Shown here: one piece after another, positions 1-12,031 of the stretch
Layout: every line of letters begins with the position of its first letter
Position numbering within the stretch: position 1 is the stretch's first letter
Source of the DNA: Schlesneria sp.
Lineage (GTDB): Bacteria; Planctomycetota; Planctomycetia; Planctomycetales; Planctomycetaceae
DNA: 12,031 bases
Assembly: GCA_025353525.1 (NCBI GenBank)
Contig: JANXOO010001429.1
Location: 1 to 12,031, forward strand
Direction: 5' to 3'
Translations under genes and position numbers: made by a program
The notes under the pieces: generated by a model
The model's database searches: none
What the model saw: only the letters and a program-made list of their open reading frames with translations
What the model was told of the DNA's origin: nothing

Positions 1-312
1 GAGGGAAAAGTTCGTAATGAAGGCGACGTGCAAATCGCAGTCTCGCCCTATCCCGTCAGCTATCGTTCGATTCGACCAAAGAAATCAGAATGTGAAAACC
101 TGCTGGTCCCGGTCTGCCTTGCGGCATCTCACATCGCGTACGGGTCAATCCGGATGGAACCCGTCTTTATGGTGCTTGGCCAAAGTTCGGCGACAGCGGC
201 ATGTATGGCGATTGACGCCCAATCGAGCGTGCAGGACATCGACTTCAACGCTTTGAAAAAGCGGCTGACCGACGATGGCCAAACGCTGGAGTGGAGCGGA
301 TCACGATTCTGA
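1..312 (+). CDS. FAD-dependent oxidoreductase, C-terminal fragment (5' end outside window)
   Basis: The frame is open from base 1 to a TGA at 310-312 and gives the last 103 residues of a longer protein. The fragment includes [20 protein letters not shown] followed by [15 protein letters not shown]. That is the C-terminal pattern I know from planctomycete FAD-dependent oxidoreductases (FAD_oxidored family), where the Gly/Ala-rich GQ-ATAA helix closes the FAD-binding fold. It is followed by a short helical tail ([13 protein letters not shown]) also usual for the family. The N-terminal dinucleotide-binding motif lies outside the window, so substrate and localisation cannot be judged; many homologues are secreted. 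The gene converges on the protease with a 17-base gap. I see no frameshift in the visible part. The family call is from recognition of conserved blocks, not a search. Confidence 0.85.
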
Positions 313-329
313 TTCAGGATCGCGATGCG

Positions 330-1796
330 TTATCGGTGCCAGACGACGAGTTGATTTCGGGACTCGGCAGCGTTCGCGCGGTTGATTTTCAGGATCACCG
401 ATTCGCTGCGGGCGTTTGATTCGAGCGCCACTCCCAAATCGTCAAGGCTTGTGACTGGTGACCGTCCAATCGCTTCGACCACATCATAAACCTGCAATTC
501 ACCATTCAGCGGACTGTTGCGATCAACTCGCAATACCAGCAATCCGCGTGCGGACCGCTGATAACCAAGTTGTTCGGCCAAATCGCCGTCGAGCGGATGA
601 AGGATCAATCCCATTTGACGAATGGGAGCACCGATGGCCGGTCTGGCAGGCGCTTCGCTTGTTTTTCGCATCTCGGTTCGATCGGCGAGGACGATTGAGA
701 GCGGAACTTTCTTTTGTCCGCGCCAGACGGTCATCCGGATCTGTTTTCCAATCGGTGACAGGCTGACCAGATTGATCAGGTGGTCATGGTCCTGGACATC
801 AATGTTATCAAAATTCAGAATGACATCATCGAATTGAAGGCCGGCTCGTGATGCAGGCGAATTGGGGAAAACCTCGTTCACACGAGCCCCTTGCAGTCGA
901 TCAAGCTTCAGCTTGCCCGCGACTTTGGTATCAAAATTCTCGTCGAGTTTAACTCCGATCCATGCTCGGGGGACGACGCCATGTTCGAGCAATTGGTCCA
1001 TGACGCGTTGTGCCAGTTGACTGGGAATGCTGAACCCGATCCCCTCGTTTCCTCCGCTTGACGACGCGATGGCCGTATTGATGCCGATGACTCGGCCCTG
1101 AAGATCAATCAGAGGTCCACCACTGTTACCGGGATTAATCGCAGCATCCGTCTGGAGAAAATCCTGATTGATGACTTCAGACTGTTTTCCGAGTTTCAAT
1201 AACCGGCGACCCCGGGCGCTAACGATCCCGAATGTGACCGAGCGACTGAGTCCAAAGGGGCTGCCCATTGCCAGTACCATGTGGCCGATATCAATTTTGC
1301 GACTGTCACCCCATTTGGCTGCTGTCAGATTCGGGGCATCGATTTTCAGAACGGCGATATCCGATTCGACGTCGGCCCAGACCTTTTCCGGCTGAATGAC
1401 CCGACCGTCATGCAGATGGATCGAAATGGAATCGAGCGGGGTTTTGTCAATCACATGTCCATTGGTAACGACAAAAAAGCCGCTTGCTTTTGAACTGCCG
1501 ATGATCACCCCCGAACCTGTTTCCTCTTCTTTGGCTCGGCCATTGACACGACGTTCGCTCTGGATGTGGACGACGCTGGGTGTCGTCACGGCAGCGATTT
1601 TGGCCAGCAGCATACTTCCGTCTTGCAACGACGAACCGTCAGTACTTAATTCGCGGTAAACCCGTTCCGTGTTAGTTCCATCGAGGTGCTCGGCATGTAC
1701 CGATCGATTGATCGGCAGTGAGGCAATAATCGCTCCGAGAGCGACGCCGATGACCAGGGTTCCCGCGTACATAATGAGGGGTTTGGGTTGGCGCAT
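330..1796 (-). CDS. Membrane-anchored S1C (HtrA/DegP-like) serine protease with two PDZ domains
   Basis: A trypsin-like protease of the HtrA type, expected to degrade or sense misfolded proteins on the outer face of the cytoplasmic membrane. Starting at ATG 1796 the protein has 488 residues. Residues 7-29 form one membrane anchor (LIMYAGTLVIGVALGAIIAS). The triad is complete: His114 in TNGHV, Asp146 in ESDIAVLKID, Ser225 in GNSGGP. PDZ1 spans about 277-372 and PDZ2 about 390-487; two PDZ domains are the DegP/DegQ arrangement. I chose ATG 1796 because the anchor follows at once, as in homologues. The base run before it (cgggaacgt) is only a weak ribosome binding site. The frame stays open for 93 more codons upstream, with another ATG at 2033 and a TTG at 2075, so a longer form is possible. 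It is downstream of the Dabb gene on the same strand. The specific gene (degP, degQ, degS) cannot be told. Confidence 0.9.
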   Translation of the reverse strand: MRQPKPLIMYAGTLVIGVALGAIIASLPINRSVHAEHLDGTNTERVYRELSTDGSSLQDGSMLLAKIAAVTTPSVVHIQSERRVNGRAKEEETGSGVIIGSSKASGFFVVTNGHVIDKTPLDSISIHLHDGRVIQPEKVWADVESDIAVLKIDAPNLTAAKWGDSRKIDIGHMVLAMGSPFGLSRSVTFGIVSARGRRLLKLGKQSEVINQDFLQTDAAINPGNSGGPLIDLQGRVIGINTAIASSSGGNEGIGFSIPSQLAQRVMDQLLEHGVVPRAWIGVKLDENFDTKVAGKLKLDRLQGARVNEVFPNSPASRAGLQFDDVILNFDNIDVQDHDHLINLVSLSPIGKQIRMTVWRGQKKVPLSIVLADRTEMRKTSEAPARPAIGAPIRQMGLILHPLDGDLAEQLGYQRSARGLLVLRVDRNSPLNGELQVYDVVEAIGRSPVTSLDDLGVALESNARSESVILKINRANAAESRNQLVVWHR

Positions 1797-2052
1797 ACGT
1801 TCCCGTTTTACCGCTGGGCGAGTTCCGTCATCGTGACATCGCTCGCAGTTCCCGATCGGCAGAATATCCGGTGCTGTTCCGAAAGTCAGATTCTTCCGAG
1901 TTTTCAGAGGCCGTTTGATGGCACTTGATTTTACCGGATCCTGGTTTGACTCGGCAGACCACTTTCTAAAATCGAGGATTTTTGTTGCGTCGTCGCTCGA
2001 ATTGAAAAAGCCGAACGTGCGGAAACCGGTCATTCCGAATTTTCCGCCGCGA
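1797..2052. other. Leader region between Dabb and protease genes, open in the protease frame
   Basis: This 256-base stretch separates the Dabb stop codon from the chosen protease start. On the minus strand it stays open in the protease frame throughout and would add about 79 residues from ATG 2033. The extension is polar and has no recognisable domain, but contains CERCHDDG at roughly 1827-1850, a CxxCH pattern, shortly before the membrane anchor. It may be an untranslated leader with a promoter, or a real cytoplasmic N-terminal extension. I see no clear promoter or terminator in it. Confidence 0.4.
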
Positions 2053-2385
2053 TCACGATTTTGTGTAGTTGTCAAACACTCGAACGTTGTCCCACGTCGG
2101 CTTGTTCTCTTCGATGAATTTTAGATGAGCGGGAGCCGTTTGGTAGACGTCATGGTCGTGCCTGGACTTGAAAACGACGAGCAATGCGACATGAAAATCC
2201 CGAACGTTCACCGGCCGTTCAAGATCAGGGACGAGAGGACCTGCACCGAAAAATGTGACTCCCGGATGGTCTTTAAGGTACTTGAAGCAGGCATCAACAA
2301 GATTCCGGATGTTATCAGCGGTTCCGTCTTTCAATCTGAAATAGACATTGTGGACGAGCATGGACTGGTTCGCATCGTGAGCCAT
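2053..2385 (-). CDS. Dabb family protein (stress-responsive alpha/beta barrel)
   Basis: A 110-residue protein of the Dabb family, small dimeric ferredoxin-like alpha/beta barrels whose exact role in bacteria is mostly unknown. The hallmarks are the opening LVHNVYFRLKDGT, the middle segment CFKYLKDHPGVTFFGAGPLV, and the pair of strands VNVRDFHVALLVVFKSRHDH followed by YQTAPAHLKFIEENKPTW. The domain fills nearly the whole protein and there is no signal peptide or membrane segment. I chose ATG 2385 because an AGGA lies 9 bases upstream on the minus strand. ATG 2361, directly at MLVHNVYF, is the alternative and would match homologues that begin at the first strand. Upstream GTG/ATG codons at 2451 and 2433 are open but add non-conserved sequence. 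The gene diverges from the lipase and precedes the protease on the same strand. Confidence 0.85.
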   Translation of the reverse strand: MAHDANQSMLVHNVYFRLKDGTADNIRNLVDACFKYLKDHPGVTFFGAGPLVPDLERPVNVRDFHVALLVVFKSRHDHDVYQTAPAHLKFIEENKPTWDNVRVFDNYTKS

Positions 2386-2386
2386 C

Positions 2387-2405
2387 AAAGGAGTTCCTGA
2401 ATATG
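2387..2405 (+). promoter_or_regulatory. Strong ribosome binding site and ATG in a frame other than the lipase
   Basis: AAAGGAG at 2387-2393 stands 9 bases before ATG 2403, the textbook arrangement, on the lipase strand. The reading frame it opens (2403-2657, 84 codons) is not the lipase frame; a -1 shift in the T-rich run at 2490-2502 would join them. It also lies just upstream of the Dabb start on the opposite strand, so it may be fortuitous. Confidence 0.35.
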
Positions 2406-2515
2406 AGTTTGCCGTCAGATACGCTTTTATCATCGCGTTTCGACTCGTCACTTGCCACTGTAACGGATAATGTAATCCGACCCCGATCGTTTTTCTTTTT
2501 TTCAGGTACGTCGCA

Positions 2516-3379
2516 GTGGTTCTGGAACTCTTCGAAGACTCGTTTGGCGATCATCGCAATGCGCAGGCCCTGGCCAAGGCGTCGGAACTTGCTTATATGC
2601 CCGAAGATACCGGCAGGGCCGAGTTTGCAGCCCAATTGGGGCTCGATGCGCGTCTGATCACCGTGGGTAATACTCAGGCTTACGTTGCACACAATGCGAA
2701 TCACATCGTCATTGCGTTTCGCGGTACTGAATCGCCCACGACGATCGACGGCCTGAAAGATTGGCTGCTGTCCGACGCCGTCAATCTGTTGATTTTGCCG
2801 ACAGGGCGACTGGGAACCGACTTCGCCGCCGCAGGGGTGGGCGCACGATTTCACCAGGGGTTTATCGACGCACTGAACGATATCTGGATTCCTGTATTCA
2901 CAACTGTTCAGGAGGAACTTAAACAATCCGAGCGTCCGTTGTGGATTACGGGGCACAGTCTGGGTGGCGCGTTAGCCGTCCTGAGTGCATGGTTATTTCA
3001 TCGTAAATTCGTCAGCGTTCACCAGGTTTATACATTCGGCGGGCCGATGATTGGATATGTCGAAGCGTCGTCAGCGTTCAACCGGGAACTGGCGGGCAAG
3101 ATTTTCCGGTACGTTAATGGTCCCGATCCCGTTCCAAAACTCCCCACAATGAGCCTGATCGCCAATGACTACGGTCATGTGGATAAAGAAATGGCGATGG
3201 GAGTTGGTCCCGGCGCCGCGTCATCGTTCCAACTGTTTTCACAATTTGCCAGCCGGTCGGCGGATGGCGTTATCCACGGAACATTGGTCGACGATATCTG
3301 GAAGGCGATTTCACAAACCGTCGAAGCGCATTTGATGCCCAGCTATCACAGTTTGATCGAACGACTGATGGGGAAGTAA
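2516..3379 (+). CDS. Class 3 lipase family alpha/beta hydrolase
   Basis: A 287-residue alpha/beta hydrolase of the fungal-type lipase (Lipase_3) family, expected to hydrolyse acyl esters. The family entry motif NAQALAKASELAY is at residues 15-27, followed by the oxyanion strand IVIAFRGTES (64-73). The nucleophile elbow is GHSLGGA, with Ser148. Asp204 lies in RYVNGPDPVPKLP, the usual acid position. His272 in AHLMPSY is the likely catalytic His; His278 is an alternative. There is no signal peptide in this reading, so a cytoplasmic location is the simplest inference. The start is uncertain: GTG 2516 has an AGG 9 bases upstream, and the frame is open back to 2471. A stronger start (AAAGGAG at 2387-2393, ATG 2403) lies upstream in another frame. 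The gene diverges from Dabb and converges on DUF2760. Confidence 0.85.
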   Translation: MVLELFEDSFGDHRNAQALAKASELAYMPEDTGRAEFAAQLGLDARLITVGNTQAYVAHNANHIVIAFRGTESPTTIDGLKDWLLSDAVNLLILPTGRLGTDFAAAGVGARFHQGFIDALNDIWIPVFTTVQEELKQSERPLWITGHSLGGALAVLSAWLFHRKFVSVHQVYTFGGPMIGYVEASSAFNRELAGKIFRYVNGPDPVPKLPTMSLIANDYGHVDKEMAMGVGPGAASSFQLFSQFASRSADGVIHGTLVDDIWKAISQTVEAHLMPSYHSLIERLMGK

Positions 3380-3398
3380 CGCATTTTGGGAGAATGCG
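3380..3398. terminator. Short hairpin between convergent lipase and DUF2760 genes
   Basis: CGCATT at 3380-3385 pairs with AATGCG at 3393-3398 across a 7-base loop. It begins directly after the lipase stop and lies inside the 28-base gap before the DUF2760 stop, a position that suits a bidirectional terminator. There is no T-run on either side, so intrinsic termination is only weakly supported. Confidence 0.3.
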
Positions 3399-3407
3399 GC
3401 CAACTCG

Positions 3408-3980
3408 CTACACCGCCGACCCGACTTCAACTTCGGCCGGAGCGATCGTCGTAGCGGCCAATTCGCCGCCAGTATATGCAGGAAGTTCGCAGCGGGTCGC
3501 TTCCCACCCATGGTGTCGCAGCGTCCCGCGGAACGGAGCTGTTCCGGTGAGTTGTCCTGTGAGACGGTAGCGCGTCGCATCGAATCCGGCAGGGATATCG
3601 ACCGGCGCGCCTTCGGAGTCTTTCAGGATTGGCTGGATGGCAAACAACCGATTGATCACGCTGCGACTGTCGCGGTGAATCTCACGAACGGCAGCACCCA
3701 CCTGTTCGTCGGAATAGCCGCTCAGATCTTCTTTCAGAAAATCGATGAACCGGGCCTCTCTTTGAAGAGTCGCCAAAAGCGTAATCGCTTCGCTCTGTCG
3801 CGGCTTCTGCGGAGCCGGAGCGGGAACCGGTTTTTTGGAAGGGGAATCCGCGACCGTCGCGGGCAGAGGAACAGGTTGTGACGGGACCGGACATGTTAGC
3901 GCAAGCTTCACGTTTTCAGCGGTTGTTTTGCTGAAAAGAGAACCAAAAAATGCCCGAAATGCCGTCGAAATTCTGCCCAT
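3408..3980 (-). CDS. DUF2760 domain-containing protein
   Basis: A 190-residue protein of unknown function. It opens with MGRISTAFRAFFGSLF, an N-terminal segment I recognise from this family. A Pro/Ala-rich linker follows (about 30-60). The DUF2760 core then runs from about residue 63: AITLLATLQREARFIDFLKE, LSGYSDEQVGAAVREIHRD, VDIPAGFDATRYRLTGQLTG, and APFRGTLRHHGW. The tail ends in APAEVEVG, also typical. No signal peptide or clear membrane segment is visible. ATG 3980 is chosen because AGGGGGA lies 8 bases upstream and homologues start here; a TTG at 4028 would add 16 residues. From memory, relatives often sit next to Hsp70-like genes, but none is present here. It lies 116 bases downstream of the ABC gene on the same strand and could be at the end of that transcript. 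Confidence 0.85.
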   Translation of the reverse strand: MGRISTAFRAFFGSLFSKTTAENVKLALTCPVPSQPVPLPATVADSPSKKPVPAPAPQKPRQSEAITLLATLQREARFIDFLKEDLSGYSDEQVGAAVREIHRDSRSVINRLFAIQPILKDSEGAPVDIPAGFDATRYRLTGQLTGTAPFRGTLRHHGWEATRCELPAYTGGELAATTIAPAEVEVGSAV

Positions 3981-4096
3981 TCCACGATTCCCCCTGATGC
4001 TTGCGACGAGGAGTGACTTCCGAATCAACCTCGCCCGGTAGTAGCGCGGCTTGCATGGGAAAAGTCAATCGACCTCGGGGAAAGTGACGAATCGGG

Positions 4097-6157
4097 TCAG
4101 TTCACGTCGCGAGAATTTTCTCCGTCGTGCCGGAACTCGTTGAAGTTCAGGTACTCCCAGTGCCGGTAAATCGAAGATTGCGTCACCAGCTTCGAATGCG
4201 GCCCCATCGCGGCAACTTTACCTTCGTGCAGGACGACAATCTGGTCAGAACGACGAACGGTCGACATTCGAGCTGGAAGGAAGATTACCGTTCGTTCGCG
4301 ACAAATCCGGTCATAGGCGTCGATCAGCAGCGTTTTGGTGTCTTCATCCAAAGGAACGCCCGGTTCTTCGATCACGAGCAACGCGGGGTTGCGAACGAGT
4401 GCTCGAGCGAGGCCGAGTCGAAATCGTTGCCCTGCATCAAGTGATTCGCCCTGGCTGGTCAGTACTGTTTCATACCCGTTGTACAGTTTTACGATGAAAT
4501 TGTGGGCGTGAGTCAGCTTGGCCGCTTCGGTTGCCTGTTGCAATGTAATCCCCGACTGACCGGCACGGATGTTTTCCAGGACGGTCCCTTCGAACGGGGG
4601 GTCGTCGGCGGCTACGAACACGGTTTCAGCACGCAATGATTCAAGAGTCACCCACGCGATGTCTTCGCCATCGATCATCACTCGGCCCTCGCGCGGCTCG
4701 ATAAATCGCGGAAGCAGTAATGCAATCGCCTTCGCTTCCAGCGGATTCGGTGACACGATCGCGTAACACTTGTCGACCTCGAGCTTGAAGTCTACTCCGT
4801 CGAGGATCTTTCGACCGGACGCGGTCTGGAATTTCACGTTTTCGAAATGGAGCGTTTTGGCCATTGGCTGCAGGAACTTGGCTCCGACCGCCTGGCTGAC
4901 GGTTGGCACACGATCAAGAAACCGCTGAACGGAGTCAGCCGCAATCGACGATTCTCGCCGAATTTCGGGAAGGGATTTTAATGCGAAGACACCTGGAATT
5001 GCTGCCACAATCGCAGCAATGAACGTCAATCCTTCGGCGATCGTCATTCCGGATGTTGATGTCGCACTTTCGAGTGCCACGACGTTGCTGCACAGAAGAA
5101 ACAGAAGAAAGGCACCAACGAAGGCGCAAGAAATGACGATGGTTGAATGGGGCCGGTCGATGGCCTCGGTCGCCCGCGATGATTCGGCCAACTGAGAATG
5201 ATATCGTTCGAGGTGCTTCTGAAACTGATCGTGGTCGTTTTGCTCGATCCCCAGTCCGCGAATCAACCTTGCATTCTGAAAACTGGCCAAAAGCACCTTC
5301 AGTTCGCCACGACTTCGATCTTCGGCCAAACGGCGATTCTTGATCGCTTTCTGGCGAATGCCATCCAGGAGGAGCAATCCCAGAGCGAGTGGAGTAATCC
5401 ATTGAAGGGCCAGTCGCCAGTCGAGACTTAGCACAACCAGTAACAAACCGGTCAATTCCAGCGGATAACGGACGCTGCGGGAGACAAATTCAAATGCACC
5501 CCGTCGAACGACTTCCAGTTCCTCTGTAAACAGTCGGGTTGCCAGCAGTTGACCAGATCCGTCGAGATCTTCAGGACCGAGTCTTAGAACCTGACGGTGA
5601 AGATTTCGCCGTGCAGTGGAGACACCTTCAATTGCGACCCGATGGCTGCAGACGCGCAGTCGAACAAGGCAAGCGCTGCGAAAAACCAGCAACAGGACTC
5701 CGATCGATAGCAGCCAGATCAGAGCAAGAACATTCATTTGCAGCCAGCCGACACGACGGTAAAGGAACGCGATGGTGCTGCCCCACAGAAAATGACGCGT
5801 CCGCCAGACCGCTGGCAAAATGCCATGTTCGTCGTAATAAACGTGGACCTTTTCGGGAATATCCTGTTCAGCGATCTGTGGCGCAATCGCTTTCGCGTCG
5901 ACGGGGCTTCCGGCCATTTTCAGCCCGGCAATTCGCTCGAATCGTGCGAATTCGTCAGGTGACAGATTCAATTCGAGCCGTCCGCGATCAACTACCAATC
6001 CGACAACAAGGCTGAGATCGAGAAGCAGCAGGAACAGTGATAGCGTTGCCGCAACCGCCCAGAAAGCGGCAGTTCTGGAATGTCCGCGGACCAGACTACG
6101 TCGAGAAAAAATTCGTTCGAGCGAATTCGCCGGAGCTACATCCACGGTGTTTGCCAA
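4097..6157 (-). CDS. ABC exporter-like half transporter with a degenerate ATPase domain
   Basis: A 686-residue protein built like a type IV ABC exporter: a transmembrane domain (about 30-400) followed by a nucleotide-binding domain (about 435-670). Hydrophobic helices are near 33-56, 141-160, 229-267 (two) and 338-395 (two). A polar segment of about 75 residues (57-130) separates the first two helices. The ATPase fold is recognisable throughout (LHFENVKF, EGRVMIDGEDI, GTVLENI, QRFRLGLARAL, STVRRSDQIVVLHEGKV), but the functional residues are lost. The Walker A position reads SPNPLEAKAI with no glycine. The A-loop aromatic is Thr445 and the Q-loop Gln is Ala517. The signature is LDAGQ (573-577), and the H-loop His is Ala629. 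Walker B (LLVIEEP) and the D-loop (VPLDEDT) are kept. The frame is uninterrupted, so this is not an obvious pseudogene. The start is TTG 6157 with no clear ribosome binding site; GTG 6145 is an alternative. It follows the permease gene by 8 bases. Confidence 0.85.
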   Translation of the reverse strand: MANTVDVAPANSLERIFSRRSLVRGHSRTAAFWAVAATLSLFLLLLDLSLVVGLVVDRGRLELNLSPDEFARFERIAGLKMAGSPVDAKAIAPQIAEQDIPEKVHVYYDEHGILPAVWRTRHFLWGSTIAFLYRRVGWLQMNVLALIWLLSIGVLLLVFRSACLVRLRVCSHRVAIEGVSTARRNLHRQVLRLGPEDLDGSGQLLATRLFTEELEVVRRGAFEFVSRSVRYPLELTGLLLVVLSLDWRLALQWITPLALGLLLLDGIRQKAIKNRRLAEDRSRGELKVLLASFQNARLIRGLGIEQNDHDQFQKHLERYHSQLAESSRATEAIDRPHSTIVISCAFVGAFLLFLLCSNVVALESATSTSGMTIAEGLTFIAAIVAAIPGVFALKSLPEIRRESSIAADSVQRFLDRVPTVSQAVGAKFLQPMAKTLHFENVKFQTASGRKILDGVDFKLEVDKCYAIVSPNPLEAKAIALLLPRFIEPREGRVMIDGEDIAWVTLESLRAETVFVAADDPPFEGTVLENIRAGQSGITLQQATEAAKLTHAHNFIVKLYNGYETVLTSQGESLDAGQRFRLGLARALVRNPALLVIEEPGVPLDEDTKTLLIDAYDRICRERTVIFLPARMSTVRRSDQIVVLHEGKVAAMGPHSKLVTQSSIYRHWEYLNFNEFRHDGENSRDVN

Positions 6158-6165
6158 TTGAAGAA

Positions 6166-7113
6166 CTAGGCCAGATCGCGATCTTCAAACAAAATAAACG
6201 CCAACAGAATTGAAGCACAACAATAGCAGGCACAGTAGATTGCAGAATAATAGAGATAAACCGGCGGGACGATATCTCCTGTTGCGACCGCCGCGCTGAT
6301 GTTAAACAGGTCCAGTGACGGCAGGACCGTTGCAATCAATCGGGCCATAAACTGCACATATTCGAGTTTTAAAACACCCGCCTGAACCAGTAATCCGGTC
6401 AGGTGCCCTACCACAAATATCGCGAAACAGCTTGTCAGGTTCACAACCATCGGCAAACGTGTCGAAATCGCCACGCTGACGGCCGAGATGACCGCGATTT
6501 CCATCATCAACAACGCAACACCGGGCAGGACCTGGTAGACCTCGTGAATTCGCTCGGCATGTGTCGGGATTTCCTTGGATCCCTCTTTGGCATCATAGCT
6601 GACTTTGAAGTAGACCAGCACCAGAAAGACTGTGACGACGGGCAGCATGTACCACAAAATCGCCTGGACGATTCCAATGTACTTTCCCAGGACGAACTGG
6701 CGTCGATTGATCGGCTTGGAGAGCAACGTCATTGCCGTCTTGCCGTCAATTTCTTCGGCAATACTGGTGCTGGCAGTCCAGACAGCGATCAACAGGCCAG
6801 TAATCAGAATTGTGGCCAACCCGCAATCTTTGACCATTTTGACATCTTCGCCGAGCGAGAAGAACGGCAAAACGTAATTCAGCAGCAAAATGACGATGGC
6901 GAGTGCCATACAGAGCAAAAAGACCGGTTGGCGTACGGCCTCTTTCGTCGTGGCTCGGGCAATAATCCCCGCTTTGGTCTGATACGAGAATCCAATCAGG
7001 GCCGCCAAAGCCAATACACCGAGAACGATTATCGGAATCCAGCTTGCGTCTCCGCGTGAACCGATATTGTCTGCGGCGAGAACCGAACTGGAAAACAGCG
7101 ACGACATCAGCAT
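6166..7113 (-). CDS. ABC-2 type transporter permease
   Basis: A 315-residue membrane protein with six or seven hydrophobic helices, at about residues 25-44, 62-85, 97-118, 146-168, 199-222, 225-245 and 283-308. The cytoplasmic segment [20 protein letters not shown] followed by FVLGKYIG (about 120-147) is the hallmark of ABC-2 permeases of the NosY/GldF type, where it couples to the ATPase. Such proteins normally work with a separate CcmA-like ATPase to move substrates across the cytoplasmic membrane; the substrate here is unknown. I chose ATG 7113 because GAGG stands 6 bases upstream. The frame is open for 90 more codons to a TTG at 7383, but that extension is Arg/Ser-rich without recognisable features. 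The only ATPase-like gene next to it is the degenerate one 8 bases downstream, so the pair is probably one operon. Confidence 0.85.
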
Positions 7114-7194
7114 GAACAACCTCGTGCGAAACAAAAGTGCCAGCGAAGAAACGGAAAAGTGCCCGACTTCACGGCGGAGCCTACGCCAAATCGC

Positions 7195-7209
7195 ATCCAA
7201 ATGTTGGAT
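7195..7209. promoter_or_regulatory. Dyad ATCCAA-ATG-TTGGAT upstream of permease operon
   Basis: A perfect 6-base inverted repeat with a 3-base spacer lies about 82 bases upstream of the permease start codon. Its size and position fit a dimeric regulator's operator, but a dyad this short can occur by chance and no matching regulator gene is in the window. Confidence 0.2.
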
Positions 7210-7427
7210 CGCAAGACGAGAATGTACCGATGGCAGCGACCGATTAAAACCGGTCCCGTCGATTTGTTTGAAATTTTGTCTTCGGGAATACAGGAAAGAA
7301 CGCTTTGAAGGGTCTGCGACACGTCGTCTGACGTTGCCGAAAGCCGTAAAGTCGCTTTGAATCGCGTGACCTGTGCGAAACAAAACCTCAAAATGACTTA
7401 ATCATTGTCACCAGCGGTAAAATCTGG

Positions 7428-7460
7428 CTCGGCTGCTCAACCCACTTTCGAGCAACCGAG
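7428..7460 (-). terminator. Hairpin between thioredoxin and permease genes
   Basis: The arms 7428-7438 and 7450-7460 pair over 11 bases, with one U-G wobble when read on the minus strand, around an 11-base loop. On that strand the stem is followed closely by ATTTTA, a short T-run. It lies about 145 bases beyond the thioredoxin stop, so it could end that transcript before the permease operon begins. The T-run is short, hence the modest confidence. Confidence 0.35.
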
Positions 7461-7602
7461 GCCAGAGGCTTTGCAGTCCCCAGCCCAACTACCACAAGCA
7501 AACACGATTGAAAAACTGCGCCCGGAAACAGGAAAATTCCTGAATTTCTGCGGCGTTTAAACGAACTGAATCGGTCACCCGTTCAGACGTTTTTGACCTG
7601 GT

Positions 7603-8442
7603 TCAGAGTCCGTTGACGTAATACAACGGGCTTTGAATAAACCTCCGCTGACGTTGCCGATCGCTGAACATCCAGATTCGCCCGCGCCACGTAACGGCCA
7701 TTCGAGGATCACCCCGTCCTGTCGAACCCTCTTCACGTGAGCGAACCAGACACTGGCCATTCGCGACAGGCCAGTACTTTTCAGGATCCGCCTGGAACTT
7801 TTGCAGATGTTCTTCCGATTGGAAGCAGATCGTCTGACCACGATGTTCTGCAACAAATTCCGGTAATCCTCGTCGAACCCGAGTTTCTTCGAGCAAGCTC
7901 ACCAGGCAATACCCGTCGAAACCGAACTTGAGCGCGTTCTCGGGATCGAGTGCCGACACTGCGTCGTCCGTACCGCTCCGCTTGCGAACCGCCGGTTGCG
8001 ATTTGGAGAGAGGCAAGAGCGCCGAAAACAAATCGTTTGCCGACTGAAAGCCGGCCATTCGCTTCAACTCTGTTTGATCCGGAGCGATCACGATCGTCGT
8101 AGGAAATGCTTCGACATGGAATTTCGTCACCATTTCCGGATTTTCATCGGCATCAATCATCAGCGGCACAAAGCCGGCCTGTACGATGTCAACTACGCGA
8201 GAATCGGCAAACGTCAGTTGTTTCATTTGCCGACAGGGGCCGCACCAGACTGCGGTAACCCTTACCAGGATGGGCTTTCCGTCGCGAATCGACTCTTCCG
8301 TCGCTTCCTTGTACGATGTTTTCCAGTCGATGGAAGGTACTTTGTAGGTACCTCCGTAATCCTGAGCGATGGCGGAACTTCCCGCCAACGTGATGGCGAA
8401 CAAACCGCTCGCCAAAGTGCGCATGTATCTCAATTTTTGCAT
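7603..8442 (-). CDS. Secreted thioredoxin-like protein with two YHS-like C-terminal repeats
   Basis: A 279-residue exported protein. A basic start (MQKLRYMR), a hydrophobic stretch and SSAIAQ form a signal peptide with a likely cleavage after about residue 26. The thioredoxin domain spans about 38-150: active site WCGPC with Cys67 and Cys70, and the cis-Pro loop AFPTT (Pro114). This supports thiol-disulfide exchange outside the cytoplasm. After a linker come two related blocks of about 52 residues, 174-227 (GYCLVSLLEE, HRGQTICF, FQADPEKYWPV) and 228-278 (GQCLVRSREE, WRGRIWMF, FIQSPLYYVN). They look like tandem YHS/TRASH-type domains, often linked with metal binding, with one cysteine each at the repeat start. 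ATG 8442 is chosen for its AGGAGG 5 bases upstream and the signal peptide. ATG 8481 also has a GAGG but would put acidic residues before the signal. Confidence 0.85.
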   Translation of the reverse strand: MQKLRYMRTLASGLFAITLAGSSAIAQDYGGTYKVPSIDWKTSYKEATEESIRDGKPILVRVTAVWCGPCRQMKQLTFADSRVVDIVQAGFVPLMIDADENPEMVTKFHVEAFPTTIVIAPDQTELKRMAGFQSANDLFSALLPLSKSQPAVRKRSGTDDAVSALDPENALKFGFDGYCLVSLLEETRVRRGLPEFVAEHRGQTICFQSEEHLQKFQADPEKYWPVANGQCLVRSREEGSTGRGDPRMAVTWRGRIWMFSDRQRQRRFIQSPLYYVNGL

Positions 8443-8673
8443 ACCAACCTCCTGGGCCGAACCATCGGTTCTCGAATCCATTCTTAGTCCTCAACTCGGC
8501 ATGCGCACGGCCCAAATTTTTGCTGCCCGAGTCCTGAGGCGGTCGAAAGAATAGTGGTGGTTCCAGAGGTGTGCCACCGAATTACGTCGCACGAACATTA
8601 AGAAATCGAAAGCCCGTTGAATCCTGCTTGATGTTTCAAGAGTTCTTGATACCTGACCCTGCAGAAGGCTTTA

Positions 8674-8687
8674 CGCCGTTTTCGGCG
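8674..8687. repeat. CGCCG-TTTT-CGGCG hairpin
   Basis: A perfect 5-base GC stem closes a four-base loop, about 230 bases upstream of the thioredoxin start. No T-run follows on either strand. It could be a structured leader element or part of a dispersed repeat; function not evident. Confidence 0.35.
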
Positions 8688-8834
8688 AGGGATTTCGCTT
8701 GAGGAAAGGGCCAATTGAGGGTGAAAAAGCCTTTTTTTTTGCCCCCAAAAATATGATTTTTTTGGTAGAATTCAGGTCGATTCAAGCGTTTTTTTAGCGA
8801 AATTGACGATTGAAACAGCGAAGAAGCTCTGCGT

Positions 8835-8849
8835 GAACGCTCGGGCTAC
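8835..8849. repeat. Single-arm remnant of the planctomycete-type repeat
   Basis: GAACGCTCGGGCTAC matches the right arm of the inverted repeat at 10808-10886 (TAACGCTTCGGGCTAC) apart from one missing T and one changed base. The second arm is absent here. It lies about 75 bases past the methyltransferase stop. Confidence 0.35.
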
Positions 8850-8922
8850 AACCAAAATCCGGGCAATTTTGTATTGAACATGGGCGACTTAACAGGTTTT
8901 TCCTGACCAGCGTTGGCGATTT

Positions 8923-10512
8923 TTATGCGATAAACATCGCTCGCCGCGCCAGATCATCGAGGACATCGGGCAAAAAGCTGTTTGCCGGAGTCCTCAAAAC
9001 GTCGGGGTCCATCACGCGAATCCCCTCTTGATGTACGATCAATTTTCCGCTCAGCAACGCCTGGCACAATGCCTCGATCAATTCCGGACGATTTTTCGTT
9101 CCGTCGCATGCGGCAACCACTTGCCGCTGCAAATCGTTGAGTGCGACGAGTTCATGTCGTCGGTTTGTCACATGGTTTCCCTGGGTCGCCTGAGTTCTGG
9201 CGAGGCTCGAAACCGTTGGAAACTGTCCAGGAGTTTTTGTAAAACGAGGTGCTGTAAAATGAAGGTCGATGACCGATGTCTCACAGCAACGCAAAAGCAG
9301 GGTTGCCAGTTTTTCCGTGTCTGAACTCATGACTTCGCGACCCGACTTTTCGCTGACACCGGACGATGCACACCCCGAGATTCTGGCGAGTTCGCGGAAG
9401 GGAATCGACGCTGGCCAGATTGTTTTCAAATGGTGCATCGCCGATTTGACGATGGCATTTGTTGTTGTCAGCTTTGGGTTTCCCCGACGGTAGACAACAG
9501 TATCTGCCGTTGCACCCTCGGGCGGCAACGCGTCGGGTAGGGCATCCGACGCAACACGAAGCTTCATCATCTGTTGCGGACTGGCAGGGCGTTCGACGTG
9601 TATGTCATCGTGGCACAAGAGTGTCTGCCGAAACGTCCGATTCCTCAAAAAGTCCATGTACTGTTCGGTTTCGATCTCATTTCGCGAGAATCGACGAAGC
9701 TTTTCCCGGACACCCTCTGGCAGATTTCCGGTCGACATGACCCCAAAAACGGCCTCTCCCAAATACCGCAACCCGTGACTGGCGGCTCTGTCGGCAAACT
9801 GGTGGAAATAGACAGGCAAATTCACTTCTTCGAGGTGATCGTGAAAGAGGTAATAGTCGTCGACGCGACGTACGATCGTCTCAAGTTCCTGTCGTAACAC
9901 ATTTCCGAACGGGTCACCTTCGACATTTGTTGCCTCGCTCAGGAATTCGAGCAACCCGCGTGCTTCGTCGAGCTTCTGCTGCGGTTGTTCGAACGAGTCT
10001 GCCCGGTACCTCATCATGTCACGAATCATTCCGCGCATGTGCCACCCGGGAAATGTGTTATAGCTGACGTAGGCGACCCCTTGAGGCGCCAAAGATCGAT
10101 TGCAAATCTCAAGAATCTTTTGTTGCACGGCCTCTGGAACCCACGAATAAACACCATGGCAAATCACGAAATCGAACGGTTTTTCGCTCGCGAAGGTCAA
10201 AATGTCCTGGCACCGCAGTTCGACGTTTCGCAGTCCCAGTTGAGACAACATTGAATTTCCGTCGGCGATCTGACGGGCAGAACCATCGATTCCGATAAAC
10301 TGGCTATCGGGGTACTGATCGGCAATCGGAAGCAGATTGCCACCGCTTGCGCACCCCAACTCAAGAACACGGCAGGACTCGAGCGGTGCCGGTGACATGC
10401 CAAACAGCGTCGCGACTGTCGCCATCACATCCGGATGCGACTGATAAATCGGATGACTCTTGTACGGAACCTCGTCGTATGAATTTGGCTGAGCAGTTGG
10501 CGGTGCGTCCAC
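8923..10512 (-). CDS. SAM-dependent methyltransferase with methyltransferase regulatory domain
   Basis: A 529-residue class I methyltransferase. The entry segment YDEVPYKSHPIYQSHPD is typical of the family whose best-known members are the rickettsial protein-lysine methyltransferases PKMT1/PKMT2. SAM-binding motif I is VLELGCASGGNL (49-60), the acidic residue after strand 2 is Asp76 in FIGIDGS, and DFVICHGVYSWVP (114-126) forms the post-motif region. YNTFPGWHMRGMIRDMMRY (151-169) is another strong family block. The methyltransferase regulatory domain covers about 215-310. The C-terminal half (about 345-500) resembles the helical tail of these enzymes, with LQRQVVAACDGTKNRPELIE at 461-480. No signal peptide or membrane segment is present, so it acts in the cytoplasm. 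Substrate is unknown; protein lysine methylation is an inference from PKMT. The start is GTG 10512 without a clear ribosome binding site. The gene stands alone, with long gaps on both sides. Confidence 0.85.
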   Translation of the reverse strand: MDAPPTAQPNSYDEVPYKSHPIYQSHPDVMATVATLFGMSPAPLESCRVLELGCASGGNLLPIADQYPDSQFIGIDGSARQIADGNSMLSQLGLRNVELRCQDILTFASEKPFDFVICHGVYSWVPEAVQQKILEICNRSLAPQGVAYVSYNTFPGWHMRGMIRDMMRYRADSFEQPQQKLDEARGLLEFLSEATNVEGDPFGNVLRQELETIVRRVDDYYLFHDHLEEVNLPVYFHQFADRAASHGLRYLGEAVFGVMSTGNLPEGVREKLRRFSRNEIETEQYMDFLRNRTFRQTLLCHDDIHVERPASPQQMMKLRVASDALPDALPPEGATADTVVYRRGNPKLTTTNAIVKSAMHHLKTIWPASIPFRELARISGCASSGVSEKSGREVMSSDTEKLATLLLRCCETSVIDLHFTAPRFTKTPGQFPTVSSLARTQATQGNHVTNRRHELVALNDLQRQVVAACDGTKNRPELIEALCQALLSGKLIVHQEGIRVMDPDVLRTPANSFLPDVLDDLARRAMFIA

Positions 10513-10585
10513 TTGAATGTCTCTGAAACAGGTTGCGAATTCTGAATGGCGACCGGCAGGAAAGGAAATACCGGTCGCTTACCAA

Positions 10586-10621
10586 GGGGACAGGCACCAG
10601 GCAGACCCTGAGCCAGTCCCC
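10586..10621. repeat. Planctomycete-type GGGGACTGGC inverted repeat
   Basis: GGGGACAGGC (10586-10595) and GCCAGTCCCC (10612-10621) pair at 9 of 10 positions around a 16-base centre. On the minus strand it reads GGGGACTGGCTC, then GGTGCCTGTCCCC. I recall this wording as a short repeat scattered through planctomycete intergenic regions. Copy number here cannot be checked; only one copy is in the window. Confidence 0.6.
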
Positions 10622-10677
10622 GTTTGCAGCGGTTAAATTTTCCACTACAGGTCACGAAACAGTCTGCGTCACGCCCG

Positions 10678-10732
10678 TTCGCCCGTCAATCGCGTACCTG
10701 AATAAAAGCAGTATTCGACGACGACGGGCGAA
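10678..10732. repeat. 10-base inverted repeat TTCGCCCGTC / GACGGGCGAA
   Basis: Perfect arms at 10678-10687 and 10723-10732 are separated by 35 bases. The stem is GC-rich but has no T-run, so it is unlikely to be an intrinsic terminator. It lies between the two other intergenic repeats. Confidence 0.35.
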
Positions 10733-10807
10733 GTCGTGGGACTGGGGCATAAACGATTACGCCGCGCCATGACGTGTCTGGTGGCTACGTCCACGGGAAC
10801 TCACTTT

Positions 10808-10886
10808 AGGTAACCCGAAGCGTTAGGAAGGGAGTTTCCGCTGTTTTCACTCGCCTGGACTCCCTCGCTAACGCTTCGGGCTACCT
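10808..10886. repeat. Large inverted repeat with CCCGAAGCGTTAG core
   Basis: The arms 10808-10835 and 10859-10886 match over 28 positions with three differences, around a 23-base centre. The shared core is CCCGAAGCGTTAG, followed in the better arm by CGAGGGAGT. I recall this sequence as one of the commonest dispersed repeats in planctomycete genomes. It would form a long hairpin in RNA. It sits 114 bases upstream of the LUD start; transcript ending or a mobile short element are possible roles. Confidence 0.65.
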
Positions 10887-10999
10887 CGTCGTTTCGACAA
10901 AGCGAGTACCATTGGGCGTGCGTCGGCCTGATTGACAGGCTAGACTTGTGAGCACGAGATTCACCCCGGCTGTTTTCCTGTTGAAGATCGATATTACTG

Positions 11000-11590
11000 A
11001 TGTCTTCGCGCGATTCGATCCTTGCCGCTGTGCGCGGGCACCTGCCGCAGTCGTCTCCTTTACCGGACCATACGGGACCGTGGATCGAGTATCCCGATCC
11101 GGTAGCCCAGTTTTCCAGTGTTCTGGAAGTGATCGGCGGCCGGTGCATTCGCGTCAGGCACGAGGCCGATGTTGCTGGCCAACTTGCCTCAATCCCACAG
11201 TTTGCCTCTGCACAACAAACACTGTTGCTTGTGCAAGGAGCGGGAACCGGAACCGTCGATATGGAACAGATTGATGATCCGCATCAATTGTTTGACATCG
11301 ATTTTGCAGTGCTGCCAGGCAAGATCGCTGTCGCTGAAAATGCTGCCGTCTGGGTCAGCGATCAAGGCCTGAAGCATCGAGTGATTTATTTTCTGTGTCA
11401 GCATCTGGCTCTGGTGGTTCAGGCGTCCGATCTGGTTCACAACATGCATCAGGCTTACGACCGCCTGTCCGTGAGCGATTCACCGTTTGGCGGATTCATT
11501 GCCGGTCCCTCCAAAACGGCGGATATCGAACAATCGCTCGTCGTGGGTGCTCATGGACCGCGGTCGATGACGGTTTTTGTCGTAGGATAA
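11000..11590 (+). CDS. LUD domain protein, LutC/YkgG family
   Basis: A 196-residue cytoplasmic protein of the LUD family. The C-terminal block GPSKTADIEQSLVVGAHGPR (169-188) is the signature of LutC-like proteins, and GKIAVAENAAVWVS (107-120) matches the conserved AETGT-type segment. The N-terminus (SSRDSILAAVRGHLP) is the usual opening helix. LutC acts with the iron-sulfur proteins LutA and LutB in oxidation of L-lactate to pyruvate. Neither partner is in the window, so the role here is uncertain. It starts at ATG 11000 without a strong ribosome binding site. It diverges from the methyltransferase and lies 47 bases before an NHL-repeat gene on the same strand, which may be co-transcribed. 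Length is close to the family norm and all key blocks are present. Its own gene symbol is not assigned because no lut operon is visible. Confidence 0.85.
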   Translation: MSSRDSILAAVRGHLPQSSPLPDHTGPWIEYPDPVAQFSSVLEVIGGRCIRVRHEADVAGQLASIPQFASAQQTLLLVQGAGTGTVDMEQIDDPHQLFDIDFAVLPGKIAVAENAAVWVSDQGLKHRVIYFLCQHLALVVQASDLVHNMHQAYDRLSVSDSPFGGFIAGPSKTADIEQSLVVGAHGPRSMTVFVVG

Positions 11591-11637
11591 ACGGGTATTG
11601 CGCCCACAAGACGCGTCCAACGTGAGGAGGTCTGAAG

Positions 11638-12031
11638 GTGCCGCATCGAAGGACTCAACCCGACTTCACATCGCTGATTTTCGTTTTCTTCATGTCGATA
11701 TGTGTGCAGGCCCGTGCTGTCGACAAGACTGCACGTGAACCCGGATTCACTCTGACGCCGCAAAAGAGCTTCCTGAAACTGTCCAGGGACCACATTCCCA
11801 CGGCTTGTTCGGCGGTTGGCGTCAACAGCAAAAACGAAGTCTTTCTGTTTCATCGCGGCCCGCGCCCCATCCAATGCTTCGATGCTGAAGGAAAATTTTT
11901 GCGAGCCTGGGGCGACGATGTCATCAAGATTGCGCACGGGTTGAAAATCGACGGCGATGACAACGTTTGGGTCACGGATGTTGGAGGTCATCGCGTCTAT
12001 AAATTTGACTCGACCGGCAAGCCCCTGCTTG
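11638..12031 (+). CDS. Secreted NHL-repeat protein, amidating-lyase-like (3' end outside window)
   Basis: The first 131 residues of a longer protein, open to the end of the window. The start is GTG 11638, well supported by GAGGAGG ending 7 bases upstream. Residues 1-27 form a signal peptide: PHRRTQPDF, a hydrophobic run with FVFFMSICV, and a likely cleavage after ARA. The mature part shows beta-propeller repeats of the NHL type: VNSKNEVFLFHRGPRPIQCF, then DAEGKFLRAWGDD, HGLKIDGDDNVWVTDVGGHR, and VYKFDSTGKPLL. The wording FHRGPRPIQCFD and HGLKID resembles the peptidyl-alpha-hydroxyglycine alpha-amidating lyase family, common in Planctomycetota, where the true substrate is usually unknown. It is expected to be periplasmic or exported. 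The LUD gene ends 47 bases upstream, so both may share a transcript. Confidence 0.8.
   Translation, partial: MPHRRTQPDFTSLIFVFFMSICVQARAVDKTAREPGFTLTPQKSFLKLSRDHIPTACSAVGVNSKNEVFLFHRGPRPIQCFDAEGKFLRAWGDDVIKIAHGLKIDGDDNVWVTDVGGHRVYKFDSTGKPLL

Follow-up and report, generated by a model that had tools for sequence, protein, structure and literature searches.

A widely kept pseudo-ATPase ABC half-exporter and its usual permease neighbour in class Planctomycetia

What does an ATP-binding cassette (ABC) exporter do once the residues that handle ATP have gone? The question is raised by a gene in a 12,031-nucleotide stretch of Schlesneria sp. DNA (GenBank assembly GCA_025353525.1, contig JANXOO010001429.1, positions 1 to 12,031 of the forward strand), referred to below as the window. 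The gene (4097..6157, minus strand) encodes a pseudo-ATPase type IV ABC half-exporter of 686 amino acids, hereafter the pseudo-exporter. It belongs to a family that has lost its ATP-site residues, is under strong purifying selection and is usually found directly downstream of a gene for a NosY-like ABC-2 permease. The best explanation, to which we give a probability of roughly 0.6, is that it is an ancient, conserved pseudo-ATPase exporter, most likely working with this permease, in a structural or regulatory capacity, in an envelope step.

The ATP site and its conservation

A first-pass annotation of this DNA had described an intact exporter gene with degenerate ATPase motifs. The intact frame was confirmed, on the minus strand: it is open over 686 codons from a TTG at 6157 to a stop at 4097, without stop or frameshift, and alternative in-frame GTG or TTG starts are possible further on. 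The plus strand of 4097-6157 contained many stops in the frame tested. Structure look-ups gave nearest folds only and support no statement that a fold is absent; the protein is predicted to retain an intact half-exporter fold of the type IV MsbA/TM287-288 kind, with a transmembrane domain (TMD) followed by a nucleotide-binding domain (NBD). All the earlier motif readings were reproduced when the motifs were placed by alignment to canonical exporters. On the minus strand, the A-loop position is Thr445, the former Walker A motif or P-loop reads SPNPLEAKA (residues 469-477, 4727..4753), the Q-loop position is Ala517 (4607..4609), and the signature has become LDAGQ through Ser to Asp and Gly to Ala changes (residues 573-577, 4427..4441). 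The Walker B region reads LLVIEEP (residues 593-599, 4361..4381) and the former H-loop Pro628-Ala629 (4271..4276). A sequencing error behind the loss of Walker A is unlikely, because P0002, encoded on another contig and 96% identical, carries the same residues at Walker A, the signature and Walker B.

To see how far this pattern extends, relatives were aligned. The homologue search gave 582 matches at E<=1e-3, and the 120 listed among them were used; loci were added from named genome contigs (80 family loci, the best 80 of 100) and from other genomes of the phylum. The resulting alignment holds 229 sequences, comprising 121 proteins and the open reading frames of 108 loci; the window protein is present twice and further overlaps are likely. 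All 229 lack a GxxxxGK[ST] Walker A motif, and in no sequence is its position occupied by Lys. The P-loop is replaced family-wide by a conserved acidic stretch, S-x-(D/N)-P-L-E-A-(K/R)-A, with Ser469 in 204 sequences, Asp or Asn471 in 196, Pro472 in 179 and Glu474 in 176. The Q-loop position is Ala or Gly in 218/229. At signature position 574, Asp is found in 181 sequences and Ser in five; the letters LSGG occur in six, at the signature position in none. Pro628 is present in 226, with His at 629 in only two. Given the complete absence of Walker A and its Lys and the conserved replacements, this loss is not due to chance, and the same residues are lost throughout the family. By contrast with these positions, Glu598 and Pro599 are present in 228/229, the remaining row being gapped there, and the D-loop persists as the annotation had stated (Asp604 in 213/229). 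The Glu598-Pro599 pair may belong to a surface for interactions or serve some other chemistry.

Acidic residues, Asp and Glu, occupy the place at which a P-loop would enclose the phosphates, which would speak against binding of a triphosphate. Since the P-loop is now the acidic Sx(D/N)PLEA and the contacts from the Q-loop, the signature and the H-loop are gone, the NBD is probably no longer able to hold ATP.

We then compared nonsynonymous and synonymous changes by the Nei-Gojobori method in 19 pairs of related loci, none including the window and four having dS >1, the NBD being taken as the last 255 residues. For the NBD, dN/dS was 0.02-0.08 in 18 pairs and 0.16 in one pair with a dS of 0.06. 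It was lower than that of the TMD (0.03-0.20) in 17 pairs and equal to it in two. Mean column entropy was 1.30 bits for the NBD against 2.37 bits for the TMD, indicating that the NBD is the more conserved half. The comparison thus revealed strong purifying selection and not decay. The altered ATPase motifs, together with two much further diverged relatives (L217 and L222), could be taken as signs of a gene that is decaying or non-functional, but the open frames, the low dN/dS, the conserved replacement residues and the retention in many families make this highly improbable, and dN/dS together with the wide conservation rules out recent decay. The functional pseudo-ATPase envisaged in the first-pass annotation is therefore strongly supported by the shared residue loss, the purifying selection and the predicted intact fold.

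Distribution and origin in class Planctomycetia

Searched with a class-wide profile at E<=1e-135, 237 of 397 class genomes gave a match. In the window's own family (f1), 119 of 124 genomes matched at this cut-off (a count of rows), and the 28 sampled f1 genomes all matched at E<=3e-163. The cut-off loses diverged or fragmentary copies, such as a pseudo-exporter fragment found at 1.3e-132 in a further f1 genome (G739). Matches were obtained in ten families, f1, f5, f101-f104, f109, f112, f113 and f2, the last with three genomes. Neither Walker A nor LSGGQ was found in the matches whose motifs were read out (18 + 4 + 12 sequences). Sixteen of the first 18, the ABC proteins encoded after the permease in other families, had been chosen by position. 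Among the best matches from 30 class genomes, 26 had canonical motifs and four were pseudo-exporters (G681, G745, G604 and G416). Loss of the gene from f2 is incomplete, because three of its genomes (G540, G641 and G671) carry a pseudo-exporter, in each case beside the permease.

The ATP site is not equally eroded everywhere. The Walker Lys is retained in 4/7 f5 and 4/5 f101 sequences (GxDDDSK, GPDPAEK), and most f5 sequences retain the Q-loop Gln and an H-loop His. In f1 the Walker Lys, the Q-loop Gln and the H-loop His are all lost, save for two His.

In a maximum-likelihood tree, one branch separates 39 pseudo-exporter rows from 48 Walker-A-bearing rows (SH-aLRT 98). A tree artefact caused by the shared motif loss was rejected, as the same split (37 versus 47 rows, SH-aLRT 100) was retained after masking the motif columns, in a tree that leaves out the three longest rows (L217, L222 and L006). 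That the P-loop was lost once, early in the history of class Planctomycetia, is the simplest reading and not a proof, because the trees were quick, without bootstrap and unrooted; moreover, the pseudo-exporter rows L217 and L222 are very long. Purifying selection on the altered protein would have followed, and many Pirellulales-type lineages would have dropped the gene. The NBDs of L217 and L222 have diverged much further than the others; their frames, of 659 and 656 amino acids, are open and stand beside the permease.

The permease, other neighbours and the probable role

The surroundings of the gene went unmentioned in the first-pass annotation, although they include its most constant neighbour. 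This is the NosY-like ABC-2 permease gene (6166..7113, minus strand), which encodes 315 amino acids if the ATG at 7113 is the start; the stretch added by an alternative TTG at 7383 is poorly conserved. The product has an ABC-2 permease fold, and an 8-base gap separates its stop codon from the TTG of the pseudo-exporter. The permease is immediately upstream in 67 of the 80 family loci; five of the other 13 are truncated by contig ends and eight have no permease in at least 1.1 kb. It occupies the same place in 16/37 loci of other families, among them 7/7 in f5 and 5/5 in f101, and in 6/12 further pseudo-exporter loci with short flanks. Clustering of the other neighbours gave mostly overlapping-frame noise, the permease alone standing out in the window's own family. 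One genome that is 99% complete (G468) had neither gene at the thresholds used.

The gene is intact across much of the class and usually lies beside a second transporter-like gene, and so its job is probably other than ATP-powered pumping. We propose that the pseudo-exporter is an inner-membrane structural or regulatory subunit working with the upstream permease. Its NBD, keeping the predicted fold but probably without holding ATP, would now act as a protein-interaction platform, and the pair would share an envelope transport or assembly step, possibly related to lipid A or lipopolysaccharide (LPS), for which any ATP energy would come from an ATPase encoded elsewhere. The regulatory or structural subunit that the first-pass annotation listed among its options is the best fit, though an inferred one. 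A more specific version, which we hold only tentatively and consider rather unlikely, is a hybrid ABC machine in which the dead half-exporter and the permease, lacking a linked ATPase of its own, form one complex, in which the half-exporter's NBDs, deprived of ATP chemistry, would hold or gate the permease while the outer membrane (lipid A) is being built.

Another option in that annotation was one half of a heterodimer, the active partner being encoded elsewhere; TM287/288, TmrAB and TAP are exporters of this kind. In such exporters the degenerate half keeps its Walker A and contributes a working signature to the active site, having lost its own catalytic Glu. Here Walker A is absent from the entire alignment, the signature Ser is mostly Asp, and the catalytic-type Glu is kept. 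With the P-loop, the signature Ser and its first Gly changed, both composite sites would be damaged. Nearby ATPases or partners were sought with a hidden Markov model trained on 11 ABC proteins from the genome of the window, and it detected Walker-A-bearing ABC genes in 7/80 family loci, in 3/37 of other families (L197, L203 and L207) and in 1/20 outside the class (L299). In none of these loci does such a gene directly adjoin the pseudo-exporter or the permease on its strand, an unlinked ATPase for the permease not having been searched for. According to the excerpted text of PMC7756269, the degenerate sites of well-studied exporters still bind ATP, with ABCG5/G8 and Pdr5 as exceptions on record whose degenerate site has an altered Walker A. 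Given the damage expected at the two composite sites and the lack of an accompanying gene for an ABC exporter, the heterodimer fits less well; it is disfavoured and we regard it as unlikely.

A further alternative is transport without ATP. The protein could act as a homodimer, as a channel, a scramblase or a gradient-driven carrier, its inert NBDs joining the two halves. The TMD is predicted to form a complete exporter fold and is itself under selection, in keeping with this idea; the linkage to the ABC-2 permease is left unexplained by it, and we know of no ABC exporter established as an ATP-independent channel, scramblase or carrier. We therefore consider this possibility improbable as well.

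Some flanking genes point, weakly, to the envelope. Outside f1, f5 and f101, a lipid A cluster stands beside the permease in 14/25 loci (identified by Pfam for L193 and L206, by tblastn for the others). In these 14 the permease is tail-to-tail with a MocA-type oxidoreductase gene, followed by LpxA- and/or LpxC-type and mostly OmpH-type genes; many Pirellulales-type loci are arranged in this way. The pseudo-exporter lies between permease and cluster in three (L193, L201 and L204). In the remaining 11, the gap between permease and oxidoreductase is 36-142 bases in six and 0.8-5.3 kb in five, and the six short-gap loci look as if the pseudo-exporter had been cleanly deleted. This arrangement hints that the MsbA-like protein has to do with the envelope or lipid A, the evidence being weak because the lipid A genes are convergent to the permease and the cluster did not turn up in the flanks (<=10 kb, many shorter) of the 80 family loci or of the 12 f5/f101 loci.

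These last two points weigh against a partnership with the permease in an envelope step, and several others do as well. At the cut-offs used, the permease was detected in 381/397 class genomes against 237/397 for the pseudo-exporter; in many class genomes the permease is thus present although no pseudo-exporter was detected, and there it does not need one. The two genes are unlinked in some genomes (G321, G283 and G416), and the permease is not adjacent in 8/80 family loci. A pure scaffold would have no obvious need for the catalytic-type Glu598. The limits of the trees and of the dN/dS pairs given above count on the same side.

Other observations concern the neighbours themselves. The permease frame is 508-618 amino acids long in 15/30 loci of other families (L165, L168 and L175 among them), with about 200 extra N-terminal residues; this extension had no Pfam match in the three tested. 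Outside the class, permease relatives often precede a metallophosphoesterase gene (Pfam-checked in L282, L285, L290 and L295) and occur near parB (Pfam-checked in L281, L290 and L295). In the window, a DUF2760 gene (3408-4028, minus strand) lies directly downstream of the pseudo-exporter and is linked to it in 7/80 loci; in the same seven loci a gene for a thioredoxin-like protein with an extra C-terminal part (7603-8481, minus strand, in the window) lies upstream of the permease.

Comparison with known systems

ABC proteins with dead sites are already known; a widely kept half-exporter lineage without a P-loop, accompanied by a permease without a linked ATPase, appears undescribed. No description of such a family was found among the top titles and abstract openings listed from open-access literature, and the Planctopirus essentiality paper has no match for 'ABC transporter' in its main text. 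In the excerpted text of PMC7756269, degenerate ABC sites mostly figure as partners of a second site within a pump that still works. In the present case an entire lineage of half-exporters lacks ATP-site residues and is kept in ten families of one bacterial class, and living relatives still retain the Walker Lys, the Q-loop Gln or the H-loop His. Nature has here set up an experiment on the use of an ABC exporter without ATP. The lineage also draws attention to a planctomycete pair of permease and pseudo-exporter that has apparently not been studied.

MsbA, the lipid A flippase, is a type IV ABC exporter; compared with it, the pseudo-exporter lacks Walker A, the signature Ser and the H-loop His, and is predicted to carry an insertion, at about residues 60-125, separating its first two long helices. 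Its score against the NCBIfam MsbA equivalog was 212.4 bits, below the cut-off of 602, which the tested canonical exporters of the same genome (L002-L004) also miss. With the heterodimeric TM287/288, TmrAB and TAP, in which one site is degenerate, it has in common the fold and the presence of degenerate motifs. However, the pattern is largely reversed, Walker A being lost and the catalytic Glu kept, its signature is also altered, and it has no linked canonical partner. The permease resembles NosY of the NosDFY system but has no adjoining ATPase gene in the loci examined. SUR and CFTR provide the precedent for an ABC exporter architecture serving a job other than pumping. They differ from the pseudo-exporter in that nucleotide is bound there, whereas here the residues of the ATP site have been lost; ABCC7 and ABCC9 are both described as binding nucleotide (PMC7756269, excerpted text).
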